Assembly (NCBI RefSeq): GCF_005405105.1
Contig: NZ_BJDK01000003.1
Coordinates: 62,001-126,000 of the forward strand
Source: Lactiplantibacillus dongliensis
GTDB taxonomy: Bacteria > Bacillota > Bacilli > Lactobacillales > Lactobacillaceae
DNA length: 64,000 nt
Direction of reading: 5' to 3'
Shown piece after piece: positions 54,266 through 64,000 of this stretch (positions within the stretch are counted from its first letter, which is position 1; every line of letters begins with the position of its first letter). The position numbers and the translations under genes are program-made. The notes under the pieces were generated by a model that saw only the letters and a program-made list of their open reading frames with translations, ran no database searches and was not told the origin of the DNA.

Positions 54266-55051
54266 CTATTCCAGAGTTGCTAAAAATCTTAATAAGGCTT
54301 GATTGAAAGCTTGCGACTGTTCTGCCATTACAATATGACCAGCTTCTGGAACCACAACCGATTGCCCTTTAATGGCAGTCCTAGCAGTCACTGCAGCAAA
54401 CGCTGAATCAAAATAAGGCGAGTTCTCACCAGCAATGATTAGAAATGGGATTGTTAAACCTGCAACGACATCTCGCCAATCCTGAAAAGCATGATCAACT
54501 AGTAATGGTAAAGTTGCCTTTTCATCAAATGGCGATTGCTTCGCGACCCTTTTGACTAACTTGTAAGTTGTATCGTCAATGTGTTTATGAGTTGACGGAC
54601 CTAATGGATTATAAAAGTAATCCGGAAAGTCCGACCAAGTAACATCTTTAAATCCATATGGCCAATCCGTAGTATTAATCATTTTTGGTGTTTGATCAAC
54701 ATCAATCACAGCTTTAATTGATTGATCACCGAATAATGAAACATATGCGAACCAAGTTGCTGCTCCCATTGAGTTACCTAATAGAATTGGTTGTTTTAGC
54801 TTTAATTGCTGTATCAGCTCATAAGCATCCATAGCTCGACGACTCATTCGCAATCCCTTGCCAGTACGTTCCGACAATCCATGGCATCGACTATCAATGT
54901 TCACAACCCGATAGCCTGCAGTAACAAGTACCGAGACCTGTCCATGCCAGATTTCTTTAGATCCACCAAAACCAGTTAGAATAACGATTGGCTGACCTAT
55001 TCCTTCATCAGTATAATCCAGAGTAATTCGATCTGAAGTTACAAATTTCAT
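54266..55051 (-). CDS. Alpha/beta-fold hydrolase
   Basis: A 261-residue cytoplasmic hydrolase. The nucleophile elbow is GNSMGA (about residue 94), the oxyanion segment is LTGFGGSKEIW (about 26), and the catalytic His is in PEAGHIVM near the C-terminus. The acid residue is probably within the AGENSPYFDSA segment. It could be an esterase, lactonase or hydrolase of a C-C bond. It follows the thioesterase gene but is separated by a hairpin, has its own ribosome site (AAGGAG), and may be transcribed independently. Confidence 0.8.
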   Translation of the reverse strand: MKFVTSDRITLDYTDEGIGQPIVILTGFGGSKEIWHGQVSVLVTAGYRVVNIDSRCHGLSERTGKGLRMSRRAMDAYELIQQLKLKQPILLGNSMGAATWFAYVSLFGDQSIKAVIDVDQTPKMINTTDWPYGFKDVTWSDFPDYFYNPLGPSTHKHIDDTTYKLVKRVAKQSPFDEKATLPLLVDHAFQDWRDVVAGLTIPFLIIAGENSPYFDSAFAAVTARTAIKGQSVVVPEAGHIVMAEQSQAFNQALLRFLATLE

Positions 55052-55095
55052 TTTGTCGTTCTCCTTAACTTATATGCGTAACGACTCCGTCAACC

Positions 55096-55141
55096 TAAAA
55101 TGAGCTTACTAAAGTTATAAACTTCAGCAAGCTCATTTTTA
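55096..55141 (-). terminator. Terminator of the acyl-CoA reductase operon
   Basis: AAAATGAGCTT and AAGCTCATTTTT form the base, with AAGTT/AACTT in the upper part of the stem. It lies just after the thioesterase stop. The T tail on the minus strand is short (TTTTAGG), so some read-through into the hydrolase gene is possible. Confidence 0.7.
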
Positions 55142-55145
55142 CAAT

Positions 55146-55586
55146 CTAGACAGCAAACTCTTCACGAATCTGCTTAATAAACGCTTGCTGTTCTGGATCT
55201 TGAACAGTGTACGCTGGTACCGGAATCGGTTTTAAATCTGCATTAACAGCGATAAAGATGAAGATACCATTACCAATTGCTACTGGGTCACTGTCATAAG
55301 TCTGACGTCGCACTTCCACATGAAACGTCATTGTATGCCTACTAGTTTTAAGTAATGTGACACTAAAGCTAATATGATCACCAACGTGGGCTGGTTTTGC
55401 AAAGTTAAACTCTTTAATAGCCACCGTTAAAACTCGTGAATGTGTATACCGATTAGCCAATAAACCAATCGTAGAATCACAATGCTTAACCAACACCCCG
55501 CCATGTAAGATATTTAAATGATTGAGCATATCAGCATCTACAAAAAAGTCACCTGATTCAACTTGATAAAACGTATTTTTCTCCAT
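55146..55586 (-). CDS. Hotdog-fold acyl-CoA thioesterase
   Basis: A 146-residue hotdog protein of the acyl-CoA hydrolase type. It contains LNHLNILHGGVLVKHCDSTIGLLANRY, in which Asn, His-Gly-Gly and the Asp near the helix are the typical catalytic elements, and FNFAKPAHVGDHISF. It releases free acid and CoA from an acyl-CoA. As the last gene of the Etf operon it would release the reduced product, or rescue CoA from dead-end esters. AGAGG lies upstream of the ATG. The acyl specificity is unknown. Confidence 0.85.
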   Translation of the reverse strand: MEKNTFYQVESGDFFVDADMLNHLNILHGGVLVKHCDSTIGLLANRYTHSRVLTVAIKEFNFAKPAHVGDHISFSVTLLKTSRHTMTFHVEVRRQTYDSDPVAIGNGIFIFIAVNADLKPIPVPAYTVQDPEQQAFIKQIREEFAV

Positions 55587-55635
55587 CTTTACCGACCTCT
55601 TTTAATGTGCATATTATTGGATATCGCAGCGCGAC

Positions 55636-57231
55636 TTACCGACCCCAGCCGCTATCACCACTGACATGTCGCATTGGCTGTTCATACTCAAGATGACCAT
55701 GCTCAACCATCTTGGCCAACAAATGCTTACGGACTTTCCCCGAACCAGTCTTCGGCAAGGTTGCAACAACAGTCAATTTTTCAGGCCAAAACTTCTTCGC
55801 TACATCAGTTTTTTCAAAGAATTGTTTAACTTGTGTTAACGTTAACGGTAAATAATCTGGTTGCATCACAACAAATGCCCCAATAATTTCACCTAAACGC
55901 GAATTCTTCAAACCAACTACTGCGGCTTCTTTGATCCCCGGATGATGCAACAACTTCTGCTCAATAATATAAGCTGAGATGTTTTCACCACCGCGAATAA
56001 TCATGTCCTTACTCCGACCATCAACTTCCAAAGCATCATCATCATTCCAATGCCCCAAGTCACCCGTTTGAAACCAACCATCAAGACTCAATGCCTTTTT
56101 AGTTTCTGCTTCATCATGATAGTATCCACTAAAGACAACTGGTCCACGTACCGCAATTTGGCCAATTCGATTAGCCGCTGTAATCTGACGTTGACGTTCA
56201 TCCATTAGCTTTACTTGTACCCCATCAATTGGAAATCCTGCGGTCGTCTCACCTTGCTTCATTTTAAAATAAGCTGGTGACGTACATAAGAAGGGTGCAC
56301 TTTCGGTTAAGCCATAAATATTATAAACCGGTAAGCCAACTTCTTTAGCTTTCTGCATCATATCATCACCTAAGCGAGCACCACCCGAAATAACTCGAGT
56401 CAATGTGCTAGGTTGTTTAAACCAACCCAAGATATCATAAATCACTGTTGGTACCGTTACCAAATAGGTACAATAATAACGATTAATTAAACGTTGTAGC
56501 CCTTCTACCGAATACCGTTGCATTAAGACTAACGTACTTCCAGCTAAAATAGTTGAAACTAAGCCATGATGGAACCCAATCGCATGGTACAGACCAGAAG
56601 GTAAAATTTGAACGTCTCCTGATTCAATCCCATACATCCGATTAAACTGTAACTCACTATATAATACGTTTTGATTAGATAACATGACACCTTTAGAATA
56701 ACTAGTCGTCCCTGAAGTACATAGGATAACTGCTGGTGCAGGTTTAACATGCTCTTCATTAGATTTATTAGTAGGCTCTAACAGGATTAATGGCACTTGA
56801 TTAAGCTTAATTCGATTGGTCATATAATCAATCTGACTGATATTTTCAAAGCTCAATGAATTGCGACCATCGGCTTGGGTAACAATCAAATCTGGTTGAA
56901 ATCTACCAATTAACACGACCGCTTCTTCTTGATCCAAATGCGGATTTAATGGGAGCACCGTAATCTTACGTTTCAGGCAAGCAATAATTAATTGCACTTC
57001 AGTCATGCAAGTTGCCATTTGTACTGCAACTACATCACCTGCTGTTAATTGCAATTTATCTAAAAACTTAGCAGCATGTTCACTTAATTCATCAAACTCA
57101 CGGTAAGTAACTTGACGATCTGCTTGAGCCAAAAAGATTTTATCAGGTGTCTTTTCACAACGTTCCTGCCAGACTTCCGCAATGGTTAGAGGAAAGGTAC
57201 TGGCTGTAGGTAATTTATATGAACCAATCAT
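55636..57231 (-). CDS. Acyl-CoA ligase (AMP-forming), CaiC/CarB-like role
   Basis: A 531-residue ANL-superfamily enzyme. The ATP loop is CTSGTTSYSKGVMLS (about residue 172), the A5 motif is YGLTESAP (about 302), then GWFQTGDLGHW and GRSKDMIIRGGENIS. The catalytic Lys lies in PKTGSGKVRKHLL near the end. It activates a carboxylic acid as an acyl-AMP and then as acyl-CoA. In the operon it would prime the first CoA ester, with the CoA-transferase then carrying CoA from product to substrate, as in caffeate respiration. The substrate may be an aromatic or aliphatic enoate. AAGGAGG supports the start. Confidence 0.85.
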   Translation of the reverse strand: MIGSYKLPTASTFPLTIAEVWQERCEKTPDKIFLAQADRQVTYREFDELSEHAAKFLDKLQLTAGDVVAVQMATCMTEVQLIIACLKRKITVLPLNPHLDQEEAVVLIGRFQPDLIVTQADGRNSLSFENISQIDYMTNRIKLNQVPLILLEPTNKSNEEHVKPAPAVILCTSGTTSYSKGVMLSNQNVLYSELQFNRMYGIESGDVQILPSGLYHAIGFHHGLVSTILAGSTLVLMQRYSVEGLQRLINRYYCTYLVTVPTVIYDILGWFKQPSTLTRVISGGARLGDDMMQKAKEVGLPVYNIYGLTESAPFLCTSPAYFKMKQGETTAGFPIDGVQVKLMDERQRQITAANRIGQIAVRGPVVFSGYYHDEAETKKALSLDGWFQTGDLGHWNDDDALEVDGRSKDMIIRGGENISAYIIEQKLLHHPGIKEAAVVGLKNSRLGEIIGAFVVMQPDYLPLTLTQVKQFFEKTDVAKKFWPEKLTVVATLPKTGSGKVRKHLLAKMVEHGHLEYEQPMRHVSGDSGWGR

Positions 57232-57247
57232 TATGCCGGACCTCCTT

Positions 57248-58219
57248 TTAACTTGGTACCGGTGCCGACAACTCGCTTAATAATTGCTTAACCACGGTTT
57301 CGCCGTCACCAATAATCCCGTAATCTGCTAACTTAAAGATTGGTGCTGCCGGATCAGTATTAATGGCAATAATACATTTTGACTGATCCATCCCAACAGT
57401 GTGTTGCAACGCACCCGAAATACCAACTGCGATATAGACGTCAGGCGCAACAACTTTGCCAGTCTGACCAACCATCGTCGACTTATCGACCCAGCCAGCA
57501 TTAACTGCAACACGTGAAGCCCCTAAACTACCATGTAACTTATCAGCTAGTTGTTGCAACAATTCAAATCCTTCTGGACCTTGCATGCCACGACCACCGG
57601 ATACAACAATTTTTGCAGTTTCCAAATCATTTTTCTTAAGTGGTAAAGCAGAATAATCGACTTGATCAGCTTGCGCTGGATTATCCACAGCTTTAACTGC
57701 CACTTTTGCTGCTGAACCAGTTACAACTTGCTCATTGACCCCAGTCATATCACAAGTCATAACGGCATTGGCATCACTAGCCAAGGTTACTTGCTGTAAC
57801 ATTGTTGCCTCTTCAGCTTTCTTTTGTGCAACGATGCTATCTGTCGTAACCGTCAACTGATTAACTTGCATAATGAAGTTTTCTTTTAATTCAGCTGCAA
57901 CGCGTTTTGCAATACTTGTGGCACCCTTATCATTAGCAAATAAAATCAAAGAGTGGGCTTGTCCAGCAAAATATTCGCTTAACGCATTTGTGGTTTGTGC
58001 GAGATTAATTTTTGAAAATTGCGCATACGCCAGAATATCAATCTCTTTTAATCCGGCTGTTCCATACTTTTCTTCGATACCTTGATCAGATGGTGCTATC
58101 ACCACCGCATTTAAATCATTGCCATCAAAATTATCTTGCGCGAAATGAATCAAATTCAAATTTTTATCTTCAAATTTCGGATCAGCTAATAATACTAAAT
58201 AAATTGGTTGCTTTGTCAT
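57248..58219 (-). CDS. etfA: Electron-transfer flavoprotein alpha subunit
   Basis: A 323-residue EtfA. The C-terminal FAD domain is fully conserved: VSGGRGMQGPEGFELL, LGASRVAVNAGWVD, QTGKVVAPDVYIAVGISGA and QHTVGMDQS, then NTDPAAPIFKLADYGIIGD. There is no N-terminal ferredoxin-like Cys cluster, unlike the EtfA (CarE) of Acetobacterium caffeate reductase. With EtfB it passes electrons to the acyl-CoA dehydrogenases. AAAGGTGGTG favours the ATG at 58219 over a reading from 58231. Overall GC content is lower than in the sbc or csc regions. Confidence 0.95.
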   Translation of the reverse strand: MTKQPIYLVLLADPKFEDKNLNLIHFAQDNFDGNDLNAVVIAPSDQGIEEKYGTAGLKEIDILAYAQFSKINLAQTTNALSEYFAGQAHSLILFANDKGATSIAKRVAAELKENFIMQVNQLTVTTDSIVAQKKAEEATMLQQVTLASDANAVMTCDMTGVNEQVVTGSAAKVAVKAVDNPAQADQVDYSALPLKKNDLETAKIVVSGGRGMQGPEGFELLQQLADKLHGSLGASRVAVNAGWVDKSTMVGQTGKVVAPDVYIAVGISGALQHTVGMDQSKCIIAINTDPAAPIFKLADYGIIGDGETVVKQLLSELSAPVPS

Positions 58220-58234
58220 GGTAAACACCACCTT

Positions 58235-59035
58235 TTATAAAATTCCTTGTGTCTGTAATTGATCGACTAACTTGTTAACTGCTTGATCGTCATCAGCTAA
58301 TTTATAAATAACTGCTTGTTTCTTCTGTTCTGGAATGAATGCCAACCGACTTGTTGGCGCTTCAGAGTTTAATTGATCCCAAACAGCCTGGTCAATCACA
58401 GTGATACTATCAACAGTAACTGCTTCTATTTCAGCACGTTTTGCAACCATCTTAGTTTTGAAGCTTGGTAGCCGAGGCTTGTTGATATCTTCTGTAACAG
58501 AGATCACAGCTGGTGTTTGCACTTTTCCGGTTAATTCACCCTTTTCCCATAAGGTTACATAGGACAATTGATCACCATCAACGTTTAAAGCATTAACATC
58601 ATCAAAGTATGGTAATCCCAAACTATTGGCAATCGATGCACTAACGTAACCTTGCGGCATATCTAGTGCTTGATCACCTGTAAAGATAACATCAAAATCA
58701 CCTAACTTTTTGGCTGCTTCAGCTAGAATAACCCCAACCGCACTATTATTGTCAGCACCGGCCTTTAATAAATCACTATTCACCGTTACGGCTTTGGTTG
58801 CACCTAATGCTAAGGCTGCTCTCAGTGCTTTTTCAGTTGCATCTGCACTACCATATGAAGCTACCGTAACCGTACCGTTTTGCCCATCAGCTAATTGTAA
58901 AGCTGCTTCAATCGCATTCTTATCAGCTGGGTTTAAAATTGCACCACTAGTTTCAGCTGTTAGTTGCCCTTGATCATCTAATTCTGGTTTTGTTGTGGGG
59001 ACAATCACCCCTTTAATAAAGACTAGACTATTCAT
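58235..59035 (-). CDS. etfB: Electron-transfer flavoprotein beta subunit
   Basis: A 266-residue EtfB. It has the LNPADKNAIEAALQL motif, the AMP/FAD-binding TVASYGSADATEKALRAAL region, a VIFTGDQALDMPQGYVSASIANSLGLP helix-loop, and SVTEDINKPRLPSF near the end. These are shared by bifurcating and ordinary Etf proteins; sequence reading alone cannot say which this is. TAGGAG is 9 bases before the ATG at 59035, whereas an ATG at 59044 touches the ribosome site. It lies 12 bases after an acyl-CoA dehydrogenase gene and 15 before etfA. Confidence 0.95.
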   Translation of the reverse strand: MNSLVFIKGVIVPTTKPELDDQGQLTAETSGAILNPADKNAIEAALQLADGQNGTVTVASYGSADATEKALRAALALGATKAVTVNSDLLKAGADNNSAVGVILAEAAKKLGDFDVIFTGDQALDMPQGYVSASIANSLGLPYFDDVNALNVDGDQLSYVTLWEKGELTGKVQTPAVISVTEDINKPRLPSFKTKMVAKRAEIEAVTVDSITVIDQAVWDQLNSEAPTSRLAFIPEQKKQAVIYKLADDDQAVNKLVDQLQTQGIL

Positions 59036-59047
59036 GAGATTCATCTC

Positions 59048-60193
59048 CTAATCGCTATATTCACGATTTAATTCATTCGCGATGGTGACGCGTTGGATTT
59101 GATTTGTACCTTCAAAGATTTGGAAGACTTTGCAATCTCGCATCAATTTTTCAACTGGGTAATCTTTCGAAACACCATAACCACCAAAAATTTGAACGGC
59201 ATCTGATGTTGCTTTTTGAACGGCATCAGTAACAAATGTCTTGGTCATAGCGCCTTCCTTGCGAACCAGACTACCTTCATCCATCATTTTCATGGTGTTA
59301 TTAACCATTAAACGTGAAGCTTCAGTTTGAGTTGCCATGTCGGCTAACATTTCTTGAACTGCTTCAAACTTAATAATTGGCCGATTAAATTGTTTACGTA
59401 ACTTGGCATACTTAACTGATTCATCCAAGGCACGTTGCATAATTCCAACTGCCAAGGTTGCAACAAAGGCACGAGATAAGTTCAAGCTATTTAAAGCAAC
59501 TTTTAATCCATGGCCTTCATCACCAATCCGGTTAGCTGCTGGTACTTTAACATGGTCAAAAGTAACATCAGTCGTGTTAGAGAGCCGCAAGCCCATCTTA
59601 TCTTCATGCTTACCAGCTGCAATACCACCACGTGACTTTTCAACGATAAAGGCACTCAAGCCCTTATTGCCATCATCAGAGGTCCGGAAAATACCAACAA
59701 AAACATCTGCTAAACTACCATTAGTAATAAATGTTTTATCACCATTTAAGATATAATCGTCGCCTTCACGAGTCGCTGTTGCTTGAACAGAGCCCGCATC
59801 AGTACCTGCGTTAGATTCACTTAAAGCGAACGCAGCAAACTTACCTGGTGCAATAATATCAGCAAAATGTTGAACCTGTTCATCGGTCCCAGCAATCATT
59901 ACTGAACGTAGTGCCACGAAAGTTGAAACTAATGTAATCGCGTACCCAGGATCATAACTAGCTAATTTTTCAAAAATCATTGCAGTGGTTGCATATGATA
60001 AGCCAGCCCCACCAAACTTTTCAGGGATTTCCAACATATGAAGTCCCATATCAAAAGCTGGTTTGAATAATTCTTCTGGACATTCACCTTTTTCATCACA
60101 TTCTTTAACAACTTCTGGTGTTAAAGTTTCATCGGCAAATTCCTTTACCATTTTCAAAAAATCTTTTTGTTCATCCGTATATAACAATGCCAT
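59048..60193 (-). CDS. Acyl-CoA dehydrogenase (reductase direction likely)
   Basis: A 381-residue flavoprotein of the short-chain acyl-CoA dehydrogenase type. Characteristic segments are FALSESNAGTDAGSVQATA (FAD and substrate loop, about residue 125), TFITNGSLADVFV, the FNRPIIKFEAVQEMLADMA region, FGGYGVSKDYPVEKLMRD, and IFEGTNQIQR near the C-terminus. The Glu of FEGTNQ is the catalytic base in this family. With EtfAB it moves electrons to or from acyl-CoA. In a fermentative lactobacillus, and without hydratase or thiolase genes, reduction of an enoyl-CoA is more likely than oxidation. GAAGGGTG supports the start. Confidence 0.92.
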   Translation of the reverse strand: MALLYTDEQKDFLKMVKEFADETLTPEVVKECDEKGECPEELFKPAFDMGLHMLEIPEKFGGAGLSYATTAMIFEKLASYDPGYAITLVSTFVALRSVMIAGTDEQVQHFADIIAPGKFAAFALSESNAGTDAGSVQATATREGDDYILNGDKTFITNGSLADVFVGIFRTSDDGNKGLSAFIVEKSRGGIAAGKHEDKMGLRLSNTTDVTFDHVKVPAANRIGDEGHGLKVALNSLNLSRAFVATLAVGIMQRALDESVKYAKLRKQFNRPIIKFEAVQEMLADMATQTEASRLMVNNTMKMMDEGSLVRKEGAMTKTFVTDAVQKATSDAVQIFGGYGVSKDYPVEKLMRDCKVFQIFEGTNQIQRVTIANELNREYSD

Positions 60194-60210
60194 CGTTAAT
60201 TCACACCCTT

Positions 60211-61449
60211 CTATTTAACAGGGTCGCCAATATGTCTAGTAGTGGCAGCTGCCCCATCATCCAATAGTTGATTAATCTTTTCATCAGAATAACCAATTTC
60301 ACTCAAGACACTCTTAGTGTCAGCACCTTGTGGCCGTGAAACTTTCAAATCTGGATTTCCCATCGATGCAAAACGAACTGGGTTCGTAGGAATCATACGA
60401 TCATTACCAGATGGGAATTTAATCTTCCGTAATTCATCGTTATCCAAAGCTTCATCATCTTTATAGATTTCAGTTGGTACATAGCAAGCTTCGAGTGGTA
60501 AATCATTTTCTTTAAAGATATCAACCCAATGCTGTAATGGTTGCTTCTTGAACTGCTCATCCAAAATACCAATAAATTCTTTATTCAAATTCTCAGCATT
60601 GATATGGTCAATATTGTTGTAACGCTTATTATCAACTAAATCTTTACGACCAATTAGCGTCATAACTTTGTTATAGTCGCGGTTAAAGACTGGAACACAC
60701 ATTACAAACCAACGATCATCACTAGTCTTAAAGCAATCATTGAATGGGTTAGCGACATTCAAACGACTCTTTGGATATTCGTTACCATATTGAGCCGAAA
60801 CCATGGCAACATTTTGCATGAAGATTGCCGCGTGATGTAAGCTGACGGTCAATTTATCGCCTTTACCTTCGCGAGCTTGCTTTAATAAGGCGCCACAGAT
60901 ACCAGCAGCTAAACACATGGAGACTTGGAAGTCACCATAACCGTTAGCAGGGTTCATTGGGCTTTGACCAGCTTCCAAAGTTGTTCCTAAAACACCACCA
61001 CGAGCCATATAAGACGTTGCATCAAAGCCAGCAGCATCCTTTTGTGGACCATGTTCGCCATAGCCTAGAACTTGTGCAAAAATCAATTTTGGAAATTTTT
61101 GTTTTAATGTTTCATAATCAATTCCTAAGTGTTCCAGTGACTTTGTCCGAACGTTAGTTACAAAGACATTGGCATCTTTCAATAAGTCGTAAAAGGCTTG
61201 CCGCCCATCATCTTTTTTCAGATTTAAAGTAACAAAACGTTTGTTTAGGTTTGAAATATCAAAGCCTAAGTTTTCGTCATCTGAATAGTGCATGTTGAAA
61301 ACGGCACCTTGTGTCCGTTCAGCATCGCCCTTTGGAGGTTCAACCTTAATGACGTCAGCGCCCCATTCACCCAAAACTCGGGTAACGGTTGGTGCTGCCA
61401 AAAACGTTGTCATGTCAACAATACGTACTCCATCTAAAGTTTTACTCAT
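60211..61449 (-). CDS. Family III CoA-transferase (CaiB/BaiF; FldA/HadA-like)
   Basis: A 412-residue CoA-transferase of family III. N-terminal segments include LAAPTVTRVLGEWGADVIKVEPPKGD; the catalytic Asp lies in GFDATSYMARGG (about residue 144). Family members such as CaiB, FldA, HadA and Frc swap CoA between two carboxylic acids through an aspartyl-CoA intermediate. The Gly-Phe/Tyr-Asp-x-Thr-x-Tyr-x-Ala-Arg-Gly-Gly context resembles the FldA/HadA branch, which handles aryl or branched 2-hydroxy and 2-enoyl acids; this is a judgement from memory. It would pass CoA from the reduced product to the next substrate. AGGAGG precedes the ATG. A long hairpin separates it from the preceding gene. 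Confidence 0.9.
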   Translation of the reverse strand: MSKTLDGVRIVDMTTFLAAPTVTRVLGEWGADVIKVEPPKGDAERTQGAVFNMHYSDDENLGFDISNLNKRFVTLNLKKDDGRQAFYDLLKDANVFVTNVRTKSLEHLGIDYETLKQKFPKLIFAQVLGYGEHGPQKDAAGFDATSYMARGGVLGTTLEAGQSPMNPANGYGDFQVSMCLAAGICGALLKQAREGKGDKLTVSLHHAAIFMQNVAMVSAQYGNEYPKSRLNVANPFNDCFKTSDDRWFVMCVPVFNRDYNKVMTLIGRKDLVDNKRYNNIDHINAENLNKEFIGILDEQFKKQPLQHWVDIFKENDLPLEACYVPTEIYKDDEALDNDELRKIKFPSGNDRMIPTNPVRFASMGNPDLKVSRPQGADTKSVLSEIGYSDEKINQLLDDGAAATTRHIGDPVK

Positions 61450-61470
61450 GAAAACTTCCTCCTAAGTAAA

Positions 61471-61514
61471 CATGCCGATAGCATGTGTTGGTTCTCACCT
61501 ATACTATCGGCATG
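61471..61514 (-). promoter_or_regulatory. Intra-operon hairpin between dehydrogenase and CoA-transferase
   Basis: CATGCCGATAG (61471-61481) and CTATCGGCATG (61504-61514) are perfect 11-base arms around a 22-base loop. There is no T run after either arm, so it is more likely an mRNA processing or stability element than a terminator. Confidence 0.6.
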
Positions 61515-61529
61515 TTATGTGCGTTTTTA

Positions 61530-62756
61530 TTATTCGATAATCCCGTCGTTAGCGATCAGCTTACGAGCTGCCGTTAAACGTTGTACTGAACGTGGACCTT
61601 CTTCAAGCCACATTGCACGGCAATCACGATACATCCGTTCAACAGGGCCGTAAGGGTTGTCTTCAAAGTAGCCAATCCCACCGAAGATTTCAAGGCAATA
61701 GTCAGAAACCAACTTGACAGTGTTAATACTGAATAGCTTGCACATTGCAGCCTTTTCTTCAATATCTTCGCCACGGTCATATTGTTCTGCTAAGTTGTGA
61801 AGCATAGTCCGTAAGGCAAAGATTTCAGTACCCATATCAGCAATTTCTTGTTGGATAGCTTGACGTTTTACAAGTGGTTTGCCAAAGGTTACACGATCTT
61901 TAGCCCGTGCAATTGACATTTCAAGCATCCGTTGGCTCATCCCTAAGTTACTTGAGGCAATGTGAGCACGTGAAATTGATAATGAAGCAATCGCAACGTG
62001 TAAACCGTCGCCTTCCTTACCAAGCAAGTACTTCTTGTTAACTCGCATGTTCGTAAACTTCAAGCCGGCATGACCAGCACCACGGCAACCCATCATATGA
62101 GGCATTGGTACAATTTCGTATCCTGGGGTGTCAACAGGTACATAGAAGGCACTCAAACGCTTGTCACCTTCAGCATCTGGATCTGTGACAGCGATTACAT
62201 AAGCAGCGTCACTGCAGTCAGTATGTGAAATTAAAGTCTTTTCACCATTAAGAATGTAGTCATCACCGTCTTTAACAGCAGTCGTATGCAAGTCAGCACC
62301 AGTACCGCCACTTTCTTCAGTTAAAGCGAAACAAGTGAAGATGGTTTTATCTTGTAGCTTTGGCATGACTTCAGCCTTTAATTCTGGTTGGCCGAATTCA
62401 TCCATAATCCGCCAGTTCAAATCAGCTGCATAGTGTAAATGCATCCGCATACCACCAGGGCCACGTGAGAACATTTCTTGTACTTGGAAGATTTGGTTGC
62501 AAGTTAAGCCAAAGCCACCATACTTCAATGGTAAAGCGAAACGATAAAGATCATTATCAATTGCTAATTCAAAGAATTTCTTTGGGAAACGGTTCGTAAC
62601 TTCGACTTCTTTTTGTAAGTAATCGAATTCGTTTTCTGCTAAATGTTTAATTTGTTTCAAGTACAATGCGAATTCTTCATTCGTCATCTTTGTACCTGGT
62701 TTTGTGTGAACTAATTTTTTGGTTGGTTCGTAAGGTAATTTTTCTGTTGCTTCCAT
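61530..62756 (-). CDS. Second acyl-CoA dehydrogenase, divergent C-terminus
   Basis: A 408-residue acyl-CoA dehydrogenase-family protein, clearly different from the 381-residue one. FAD/substrate segments include FALTEESGGTGADLHTTAV, TLISHTDCSDAAYV, FGKPLVKRQAIQQEIADM and FGGIGYFEDNPYGPVERMYRD. At the catalytic base position it has WLEEGPRSVQR where the other has IFEGTNQIQR: the Glu is kept but the Gly-Thr-Asn is Gly-Pro-Arg. The extended N-terminus (about 30 residues) is charged. It could be the true reductase, a partner in a mixed complex, or an enzyme for a related acyl-CoA. Its start overlaps the transporter stop by one base (TAATG). Confidence 0.9.
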   Translation of the reverse strand: MEATEKLPYEPTKKLVHTKPGTKMTNEEFALYLKQIKHLAENEFDYLQKEVEVTNRFPKKFFELAIDNDLYRFALPLKYGGFGLTCNQIFQVQEMFSRGPGGMRMHLHYAADLNWRIMDEFGQPELKAEVMPKLQDKTIFTCFALTEESGGTGADLHTTAVKDGDDYILNGEKTLISHTDCSDAAYVIAVTDPDAEGDKRLSAFYVPVDTPGYEIVPMPHMMGCRGAGHAGLKFTNMRVNKKYLLGKEGDGLHVAIASLSISRAHIASSNLGMSQRMLEMSIARAKDRVTFGKPLVKRQAIQQEIADMGTEIFALRTMLHNLAEQYDRGEDIEEKAAMCKLFSINTVKLVSDYCLEIFGGIGYFEDNPYGPVERMYRDCRAMWLEEGPRSVQRLTAARKLIANDGIIE

Positions 62757-63991
62757 TATTTTGCACTCTCCTTAGTTTGTGATGCTCCGACGCCTTTAGC
62801 CATCAAGAACAAATCAATAATCAGACCAACTACAGCTACACCAATGGCAACCATGTAGGCAGGATAATAAGCTGCGGTCCCAGCACCTTTATTAATGAAC
62901 AAAGCTGCAATTTGAGGACCAACTAATGAGCCAATTGCATAACCGAAAAACATTAAACCATAATTAATACCCGAATGAGTCGTCCCAAAGGCATTCCCAG
63001 TCAAGGTCGGATAGACCACTAGAACACCACCGAACGAAGCTCCTAAAAGGATTAAGAAGATCGTGAAGCTAACCAAACCGGTTGAGAATCTCAAACCAGC
63101 TAAGCCAATAATCGTTAACGCTAAGATACCTGCTAGTGTCTTAGTTTGACCCAACTTATCAGTAATCGTCCCAGTTAAGATCCGACCACCAAAATTAGCC
63201 AAAGTATTAACAACAACCATATTAGCAGCAACAATCGGCGTCATGCTAAGTTGCACTTGCGCAATCATTGATAACGATCCAATCAACATAATCCCAGCCG
63301 TACAAGCAATTGAGAACAATAATAACAATAACCAGAATTGCCACGTCTTAAGCATCGCTTGAGGAGTGTAATCATTGACAGGTGCGGCGGGATCCGTTGC
63401 ACTTTTATCCTGATTTTGCTCCGTTGGCGTATCCATCATCCAACCAACTGCCCAGCAGATGACGAGATATGCTAATCCGATTGGAATGAACCCATTCATC
63501 CCATATTGGTCACATAGGATTGCGCCAGCTTTAGCCAAAACTAACGGTCCTAATGATGCGGCGGCTAACAAGAAACCTGAAACCGTACCCCGTTTTTCTG
63601 GGAACCATTTCAAGGCAGTTAGTAGGGCGGGATTATACATGATCCCATTCCCAGCGCCGGCCATCAAACCAACAGTGATGTAAAGGAAAAATAAATTATG
63701 AACGAAAGCGGTTAACAACCAGCCCAGCCCGAAGATTAATCCACCAAAATACATTAACTTCTTGGCACCGAACTTATCCATTATGTGCCCAGAGGCCACT
63801 CCGAAGCACGCCATGAAAAATTCATACAAGGTTAACGTCAATGCAACTTGAGACTCAGTGCCTCCTGTTGCATGTTGTAACGGAACTGAAAAGACTGAAA
63901 AAGCTGATGATGCTGCACAACAAAAGATAATCAGGAACGCGGCGGTAAACACATGCGATCGTCGAACTACTTTTGCATTAGTTGTTTCCAT
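62756..63991 (-). CDS. OFA-family MFS carboxylate transporter
   Basis: A 411-residue membrane protein with 12 helices, of the oxalate/formate antiporter (OFA) group of MFS. Characteristic segments are LYEFFMACFGVASGHIMDKFGAKK (motif A), MAGAGNGIMYNPALLTALKWFPEKRGTVSG and AILCDQYGMNGFIPIG. OFA members carry mono- and dicarboxylates, often by exchange. It is the first gene visible in the operon and would import the unsaturated acid and export the reduced one. The start is the ATG at 63991 (AGG lies upstream at the window edge). The promoter lies beyond the window. Confidence 0.88.
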   Translation of the reverse strand: METTNAKVVRRSHVFTAAFLIIFCCAASSAFSVFSVPLQHATGGTESQVALTLTLYEFFMACFGVASGHIMDKFGAKKLMYFGGLIFGLGWLLTAFVHNLFFLYITVGLMAGAGNGIMYNPALLTALKWFPEKRGTVSGFLLAAASLGPLVLAKAGAILCDQYGMNGFIPIGLAYLVICWAVGWMMDTPTEQNQDKSATDPAAPVNDYTPQAMLKTWQFWLLLLLFSIACTAGIMLIGSLSMIAQVQLSMTPIVAANMVVVNTLANFGGRILTGTITDKLGQTKTLAGILALTIIGLAGLRFSTGLVSFTIFLILLGASFGGVLVVYPTLTGNAFGTTHSGINYGLMFFGYAIGSLVGPQIAALFINKGAGTAAYYPAYMVAIGVAVVGLIIDLFLMAKGVGASQTKESAK

Positions 63992-64000
63992 CACGAACCT

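Follow-up and report, generated by a model that had tools for sequence, protein, structure and literature searches.

A CoA-dependent operon of Lactiplantibacillus dongliensis as a candidate pathway for the reduction of quinate- and shikimate-type plant acids

Introduction

Quinate and shikimate are plentiful in fruit, vegetables, coffee and pollen, and lactobacilli reportedly use both acids as hydrogen acceptors, with 3,4-dihydroxycyclohexanecarboxylate given as a product by Whiting and Coggins. These authors are not known to have assigned genes to the activity, and we know of none for the reduction of quinate or shikimate by lactobacilli. The Car operon of Acetobacterium woodii for caffeyl-CoA reduction codes for a CoA-transferase, an AMP-forming ligase, an acyl-CoA dehydrogenase and both subunits of an electron-transfer flavoprotein (Etf), and its CarE protein carries an N-terminal ferredoxin-type extension. 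Here, we analysed an operon of Lactiplantibacillus dongliensis on the minus strand of a 64,000-nucleotide stretch of contig NZ_BJDK01000003.1 (positions 62,001 to 126,000; G000:C3:62001-126000 of a 3.1-Mb genome), which is called the window in the following. According to Pfam and NCBIfam, it encodes an OFA-type carrier of the major facilitator superfamily (MFS), a non-canonical acyl-CoA dehydrogenase homologue (ACD1), a CoA-transferase, a second acyl-CoA dehydrogenase (ACD2), EtfB, EtfA, an acyl-CoA ligase, a thioesterase and an alpha/beta hydrolase, in this order. On balance, we favour its reading as a pathway that reduces a hydroaromatic plant acid in a CoA-dependent manner, shikimate being the likeliest one, and are surer of this general form than of the details.

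According to PMC8364193, the bbu cluster of Emergencia timonensis comprises two CoA-transferases, a ferredoxin and a betaine/carnitine/choline transporter, its six-gene list containing neither EtfAB nor a ligase, and the acyl-CoA dehydrogenase homologue BbuA acts on gamma-butyrobetainyl-CoA, eliminating trimethylamine from its gamma carbon in a redox-neutral reaction. According to PMC5726620, several members of the bee-gut community consumed quinate in mono-colonised bees, which was recapitulated in vitro, and quinate was among the most discriminatory substrates removed in the bee gut. The paper of Whiting and Coggins (1971) is cited in a table and in the reference list of PMC8149962. Our literature search returned no match for shikimoyl-CoA or alternative spellings and no gene assignment; this negative is weak because subscription journals lie mostly outside its coverage.

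Results

Linkage of the operon core to quinate and shikimate genes

The original prediction, which was made from the letters of the window, had the operon reduce an external acid, namely a hydroxycinnamate, crotonobetaine or a short-chain enoate. CoA-dependent, Etf-linked reduction is indeed the likeliest class of function, but the proposed substrates are not supported in view of the genes neighbouring the operon in its relatives and of scores far from the cut-offs of the curated Cai models. Scanning the GTDB collection resulted in 27 loci, 19 of which (L006-L024) contain the core, defined as ACD1 plus the CoA-transferase at an identity of at least 58%. The linkage counts were obtained by clustering open reading frames (ORFs) over 25 loci, which comprised the window flank L004 and L006-L029, thus including the five non-core loci L025-L029 and leaving out L030-L032. 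Six-frame ORFs of at least 80 amino acids, chosen greedily by length and grouped by BLAST, served in place of curated gene calls.

Of the 19 core loci, 10 contain an AroE-cluster gene (quinate/shikimate dehydrogenase) and seven an AroD-cluster gene (3-dehydroquinate dehydratase). The identity of the clusters was established by Pfam and NCBIfam with one member each, and that of the window genome's own pair by Pfam. In Halanaerobium, AroE, an MFS carrier and AroD follow right behind the core, the AroD gene being located just past the end of the locus and counting in addition to the seven. Five Lactobacillus loci (L015, L016, L021, L022 and L024) contain the genes for ACD1, CoA-transferase, ACD2, EtfB, EtfA, ligase, thioesterase, MFS carrier, FAD/FMN reductase, AroE and AroD in this order on a single strand, and in L018, MFS, AroE, AroD and another AroE gene come after the core. 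Within the window's own genus, genome G323 carries LysR, AroE, MFS, AroD, ApbE and FAD/FMN reductase genes near the core, the distance from AroE to the CoA-transferase gene being about 13 kb with unrelated genes in between. In the window genome itself, the module (LysR, AroE, AroD, ApbE and FAD/FMN reductase) is located on contig C7 and is not adjacent to the operon. None of the five distant CoA-transferase loci L025-L029 showed an AroE- or AroD-cluster member in the ORF clustering.

At the level of genomes, an AroE at least 59% identical to the catabolic AroE of contig C7 was found in 16 of the 19 core genomes. Among the Lactobacillaceae, all ten genomes with the CoA-transferase contain AroE at an identity of at least 66%, compared to 64 of the 387 others (Fisher p = 3e-8, kinship ignored), and lowering the threshold to 60% gave 10 of 10 versus 83 of 387 (Fisher p = 3e-7, kinship again ignored). 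The neighbouring AroE and AroD genes of the relatives indicate quinate or shikimate as the substrate instead of the originally predicted hydroxycinnamate, crotonobetaine or short-chain enoate, and we regard it as likely that the core reduces an acid of the quinate/shikimate type.

Two further observations concern these loci. CitG-like and FabK/nitronate-monooxygenase-like genes run divergently from the core in L016 (3184-5010) and at the same place in L015, L021, L022 and L024, the L016 copies being those tested. The window genome also contains a second hydroaromatic cluster (L070, G000:C21, 3770-9025), coding for a TIM-barrel protein, an SDR protein, two AroE homologues and an MFS carrier.

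A lactate dehydrogenase-like gene beside the operon

Just outside the window, a LysR gene (L004:810-1739) and a gene for an FAD-linked oxidase (L004:1758-3158) are located divergently upstream of the operon. The best solved relative of the oxidase is LctD of the A. woodii lactate dehydrogenase (7qh2_C; E 3.5e-161, 540 bits), with the second-best one reaching 223 bits. The LctD-like gene was found at an identity of at least 68% in five of 21 Lactiplantibacillus genomes, all of them core-bearing, which amounts to five of the six core-bearing genomes versus none of the 15 others, where no match exceeded 35%. Taken over all genera, it is present in eight of the 19 core loci, which are all five with the OFA carrier (L006-L009 and L014) plus L010, L011 and L023 without it. 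The remaining ten ORFs of the 14-kb flank code for ROK, solute-binding and transport proteins, a peptidase, an asparaginase-type protein, a LacI regulator and a glycosidase. D-lactate, oxidised via the LctD-like dehydrogenase, may serve as electron donor in place of the NADH originally assumed, and for the window's species, we see even chances of lactate being the main donor.

The two dehydrogenases and the electron-transfer flavoprotein

ACD1 (61530-62756, minus strand as all operon genes; Pfam, NCBIfam and alignment) and ACD2 (59048-60193; Pfam and NCBIfam) fall into separate clades of the tree and are old paralogues. ACD2 looks canonical (FITN, FEGTNQ), with the motifs [FY]-x-T-N and E-G-[TS]-N conserved in 22 of 22 sequences. 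In ACD1, the flavin stretch reads LISH in 21 of 21 sequences, which also all contain the putative catalytic Glu386. At the position of LISH, five solved relatives of ACD1 exhibit FITN, FITN, FITS, WISN and WITN, i.e., [FW]-I-[TS]-[NS], which marks Leu and His as the unusual residues of ACD1. Judged from the usual flavin stretch in ACD2 and the altered one in ACD1, the two proteins would not be interchangeable. Alignments A1 and A2 comprised 13 and 12 sequences, and L023 (Loigolactobacillus rennini) was dropped from the ACD1 alignment by the length filter, its ACD1 being split over two ORFs in the assembly, as is the ligase of L. garii (L007).

The best NCBIfam model for both dehydrogenases is the acryloyl-CoA reductase AcrABC (ACD2 339 and ACD1 235 bits, cut-off 640), followed by cyclohexane-1-carbonyl-CoA dehydrogenase (307 and 194 bits, cut-off 650). 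No other protein of the operon is as conserved as ACD1, which shares 96-98% identity with its counterparts in four other Lactiplantibacillus species, compared to 48-70% for EtfB. Over the same four species, the match at fourfold sites amounts to 57-63% for ACD1 versus 20-49% for the genes of CoA-transferase, ACD2, Etf, ligase and thioesterase, with one value of the OFA carrier at 59%. A third acyl-CoA dehydrogenase of the window genome (533 aa, 29% identical to ACD2) is encoded beside an MFS carrier on L005 (G000:C52; 2276-3877 and 3994-5223), and this carrier is 56-57% identical to the core-adjoining one of Agrilactobacillus.

EtfB (58235-59044) shows LctB as best solved relative by a narrow margin (78 vs. 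71 bits). The DGDTxQxxP stretch, which is characteristic of bifurcating or nucleotide-binding Etf, is eroded in the window EtfB and absent in all 15 lactobacillus sequences (the window counted) and in Bifidobacterium asteroides; it is intact in LctB and in EtfB of Halanaerobium, A. bakii and Sporomusa, and shows one change in C. caldaquaticum. EtfA (57248-58231) retains the FAD-binding domain (Pfam), but its 327 amino acids compare to 396 in CarE and 418 in LctC, and it aligns to the C-terminal parts of these proteins only (CarE 273-392, LctC 246-395). The AcrABC model came second for both subunits (EtfA 132 of 600, EtfB 100 of 475). These properties suggest a simple, non-bifurcating electron carrier.

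Layout of the operon and further genes

The domain searches bore out the eight genes of the original prediction, their common strand and their order, and added only the alpha/beta hydrolase gene (54266-55051; Pfam), which its list for 54266-63991 had omitted. The hydrolase gene follows the thioesterase gene immediately in only two of the 19 core loci (L. songbeiensis L006 and L. mudanjiangensis L014) and is probably accessory. The gene of the OFA carrier (62756-63991; ORF list, Pfam and NCBIfam) shares the bases TAATG between its stop and the start of ACD1, and the remaining gaps among the eight genes measure 3-80 bases, in line with the tight spacing predicted. The nearest NCBIfam model of this carrier is an L-lactate MFS transporter, with 306 bits slightly under the cut-off of 320. 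The operon further codes for a CoA-transferase of family III (CaiB/BaiF; 60211-61449; Pfam), an AMP-forming ligase with a proposed priming role (55636-57231; Pfam and NCBIfam) and a hotdog-fold thioesterase (4HBT; 55146-55586; Pfam). Searching the operon and its flanks, but not the remaining window and genome, for enoyl-CoA hydratase, hydroxyacyl-CoA dehydrogenase and thiolase by Pfam yielded none in the nine operon proteins, the three large ORFs before the operon (from 49871) or the 12 ORFs in the 14 kb behind the OFA carrier, and the view that this is not a beta-oxidation operon still stands. A promoter scan gave 31 matches vs. 29.4 in shuffled sequences, and a terminator scan gave 6 vs. 9.2.

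Nine core loci and a Sporomusa plasmid also encode a conserved protein of about 170-220 amino acids that is partly Cys-rich (L010:10136-10684, L018:16906-17463 and L077:21361-21891; also in L009, L011, L012, L017, L019, L020 and L023). In L020, it constitutes residues 558-731 of the 733-residue ligase ORF. The three copies tested had no Pfam match and the one copy tested had no NCBIfam match, and in the ORF clustering neither the window nor the Lactiplantibacillus loci showed this protein.

Base composition, distribution and transfer

The operon region (55146-63994) has a GC content of 40.8%, compared to 45.8% for bases 1-54265 of the window, across which windows of the same size range around a mean of 45.9% (sd 1.7, minimum 42.3%). 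At third codon positions, the GC content amounts to 0.43-0.47 in three neighbouring genes and 0.41 in the OFA gene, compared to 0.27-0.36 in the genes of the dehydrogenases, CoA-transferase, Etf, ligase, thioesterase and hydrolase. As the original prediction had supposed, the operon is rare in lactobacilli: the CoA-transferase occurs at an identity of at least 65% in 10 of 397 Lactobacillaceae genomes, with 37 further genomes showing distant matches of at most 40% only. The CoA-transferases of the window and of Lactiplantibacillus songbeiensis are 100% identical.

The core was found in Lactiplantibacillus, Agrilactobacillus, Loigolactobacillus and Lactobacillus among the Lactobacillaceae, and elsewhere in B. 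asteroides, Halanaerobium, Clostridium, Acetobacterium, an Oscillospiraceae metagenome-assembled genome (MAG) and the MAG UBA4883. To judge from the names, bee guts are presumably the source of several of the Lactobacillus loci, and chicken that of L013. The conservation of gene order, which had been suggested for examination, extends to other genera and one other phylum, which is more than expected by chance. ACD1 was detected at E <= 1e-100 in two of 398 genomes of the phylum, the window's own and G759. A plasmid search with ACD1 yielded four records, Sporomusa with 66% identity and three others with at most about 40%, and a phage search yielded seven records, none above 40.4%. The Sporomusa termitida plasmid encodes ACD1 (66%), ACD2 (62%), EtfBA and the ligase, while its nearest CoA-transferase reaches just 41%. 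This plasmid, pSPTER (L077) of a termite-gut host, carries two CoA-transferase genes as well as SDR, alcohol dehydrogenase and UbiD genes.

In the trees of the CoA-transferase and of ACD2, B. asteroides falls within the Lactobacillaceae, and in that of ACD1 it stands beside Lactiplantibacillus. Because of this placement, the core genes have probably moved between phyla, and together with the low GC content it indicates that lactobacilli probably acquired the operon, as the earlier GC counts had hinted. Among the loci with distant CoA-transferases, L026, L027 and L028 (Serratia, Symbiopectobacterium and Agathobacter) contain genes for 2-hydroxyacyl-CoA dehydratase subunits (HadB/HadC-like by NCBIfam in L026), an activase, an acyl-CoA dehydrogenase and Etf, and likely represent a separate system for 2-hydroxy acid reduction.

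Discussion

Proposed pathway

The following scheme, with its putative substrate, step order, direction, donor and product, is built on the observed gene content and conservation, the quinate-gene linkage and the co-occurrence of the LctD-like gene. Quinate would be converted to shikimate by AroE and AroD, and the AMP-forming ligase would prime shikimate to its CoA ester at the expense of ATP. Afterwards, the CoA-transferase would pass CoA from the end product to the incoming substrate, and the thioesterase would release CoA. Shikimate is an alpha,beta-unsaturated acid, and once it is reduced, its C3 and C5 hydroxyls are positioned gamma to the carboxyl group. ACD2 with EtfAB would reduce the C1=C2 bond of shikimoyl-CoA to dihydroshikimoyl-CoA, ACD1 would remove a gamma-hydroxyl of the latter as water with zero net redox change, and ACD2 would then reduce the resulting enoyl-CoA to 3,4-dihydroxycyclohexanecarbonyl-CoA. 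The electrons would derive from D-lactate and enter via the LctD-like dehydrogenase. With two reductions and one gamma-dehydration, each CoA cycle would correspond to shikimate + 4[H] -> 3,4-dihydroxycyclohexanecarboxylate + H2O. The dehydration step is proposed because of the precedent of trimethylamine elimination by BbuA; by this analogy, a gamma-dehydratase function of ACD1 is possible, if rather unlikely, and might add a new chemical role to the acyl-CoA dehydrogenase family.

In its full form, the scheme would be an anaerobic pathway that has spread horizontally among lactobacilli, several clostridia and a bee-gut bifidobacterium. Lactate would be oxidised against plant hydroaromatic acids via LctD, Etf and shikimoyl-CoA, the Etf of lactobacilli and the bifidobacterium would have lost its second nucleotide site, and ACD1 would be a new flavin-dependent gamma-dehydratase. 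We put this full form forward tentatively, since it is unlikely to hold in every part. If true, lactobacilli would gain energy from lactate independently of O2, and the operon would be a gene marker for quinate and shikimate reduction in fermented foods and the bee gut.

Several observations weigh against the proposed pathway. Among the core genomes, those of B. asteroides (G797), an L. pullistercoris MAG (G801) and A. bakii (G807) lack the C7-type AroE, which weakens it, and none of the four named Lactiplantibacillus loci (L006-L008 and L014) has AroE inside. Because 13 of the 15 Lactiplantibacillus genomes lacking the core still contain the catabolic AroE, at an identity of at least 84%, quinate use does not depend on the core, and the quinate module mostly occurs without it in this genus. 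The FAD/FMN reductase of that module, present in 19 of 21 Lactiplantibacillus genomes, may itself reduce the ring. In addition, the sixth core-bearing member of the genus (G323) possesses the OFA carrier, but the LctD-like gene only as a 33% identical paralogue. Finally, the high match of ACD1 at fourfold sites means that its conservation may partly stem from recent exchange or codon constraint instead of selection on the protein.

Alternative readings

The absence of AroE from three of the 19 core genomes would also fit a core acting on a different acid, e.g., a branched or short enoate, and sharing just regulation or ecology with the quinate module, as would the Sporomusa plasmid, where SDR, alcohol dehydrogenase and UbiD genes take the place of the quinate genes. 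However, AroE/AroD linkage recurs in Lactobacillaceae, two clostridial MAGs and Halanaerobium in differing arrangements, which shared ecology alone does not predict, and we consider this explanation improbable. Reduction of hydroxycinnamates as in Car, with chlorogenate yielding quinate and caffeate and the CoA genes reducing the caffeate half, appears quite improbable, although the operon contains the parts of Car, ACD2 matches CarC with 285 bits and an alpha/beta hydrolase gene is next in the window operon. ACD2 is no nearer to CarC than to three further dehydrogenases (297, 285 and 282 bits), EtfA aligns to a limited part of CarE, and the second, more conserved dehydrogenase would be left without explanation. 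Moreover, no esterase was seen beside the quinate genes in the Lactobacillus, Agrilactobacillus, Halanaerobium and Oscillospiraceae loci, whose ORFs are partly annotated. A plain Car reading had been set aside for the AroE/AroD linkage and the short EtfA, and a gamma-butyrobetaine (bbu) reading, prompted by the two dehydrogenases, was dropped because the published cluster is composed differently.

Alternatively, the dehydrogenases might work in the oxidative direction, converting a CoA ester of the cyclohexane or dihydroshikimate type towards an aromatic product with Etf relaying the electrons. The second rank of the cyclohexane-1-carbonyl-CoA dehydrogenase model for both enzymes is in accord with this, and quinate genes are known to be able to feed protocatechuate formation as well. 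Yet the gene for an LctD-like electron donor co-occurs with the operon in the genus, and Acetobacterium, Clostridium and lactobacilli are fermentative anaerobes, which would then require another electron sink; we rate the oxidative direction as very improbable.

Comparison with known systems

The activity described by Whiting and Coggins likewise belongs to lactobacilli and has quinate and shikimate as hydrogen acceptors, but some lactobacilli performing it may be without the core. The curated Cai models were missed by far (ACD2 196 vs. 540, CoA-transferase 108 vs. 413 and ligase 170 vs. 651 bits). AcrABC of clostridia provides the top NCBIfam model for both dehydrogenases and the second for both Etf subunits, but all four scores are far under the curated cut-offs. 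With LctBCD of A. woodii, the locus shares the adjoining LctD-like gene and, by a small margin, the nearest relative of EtfB; it differs in having a shorter EtfA than LctC and an Etf belonging to an operon with acyl-CoA dehydrogenases. As in the bbu/gbu system of E. timonensis, there is a family III CoA-transferase and, as proposed here by analogy, a dehydrogenase homologue for a CoA-ester step other than dehydrogenation, whereas the window operon has one CoA-transferase and neither a ferredoxin nor a betaine transporter. Like Car, it is a single operon that combines a CoA-transferase, an AMP-forming ligase, acyl-CoA dehydrogenase and EtfAB and would run a CoA loop. Unlike Car, it contains a second, non-canonical dehydrogenase, an EtfB with an eroded motif and an EtfA without the N-terminal ferredoxin-type extension of CarE, and it is linked to quinate genes in its relatives.

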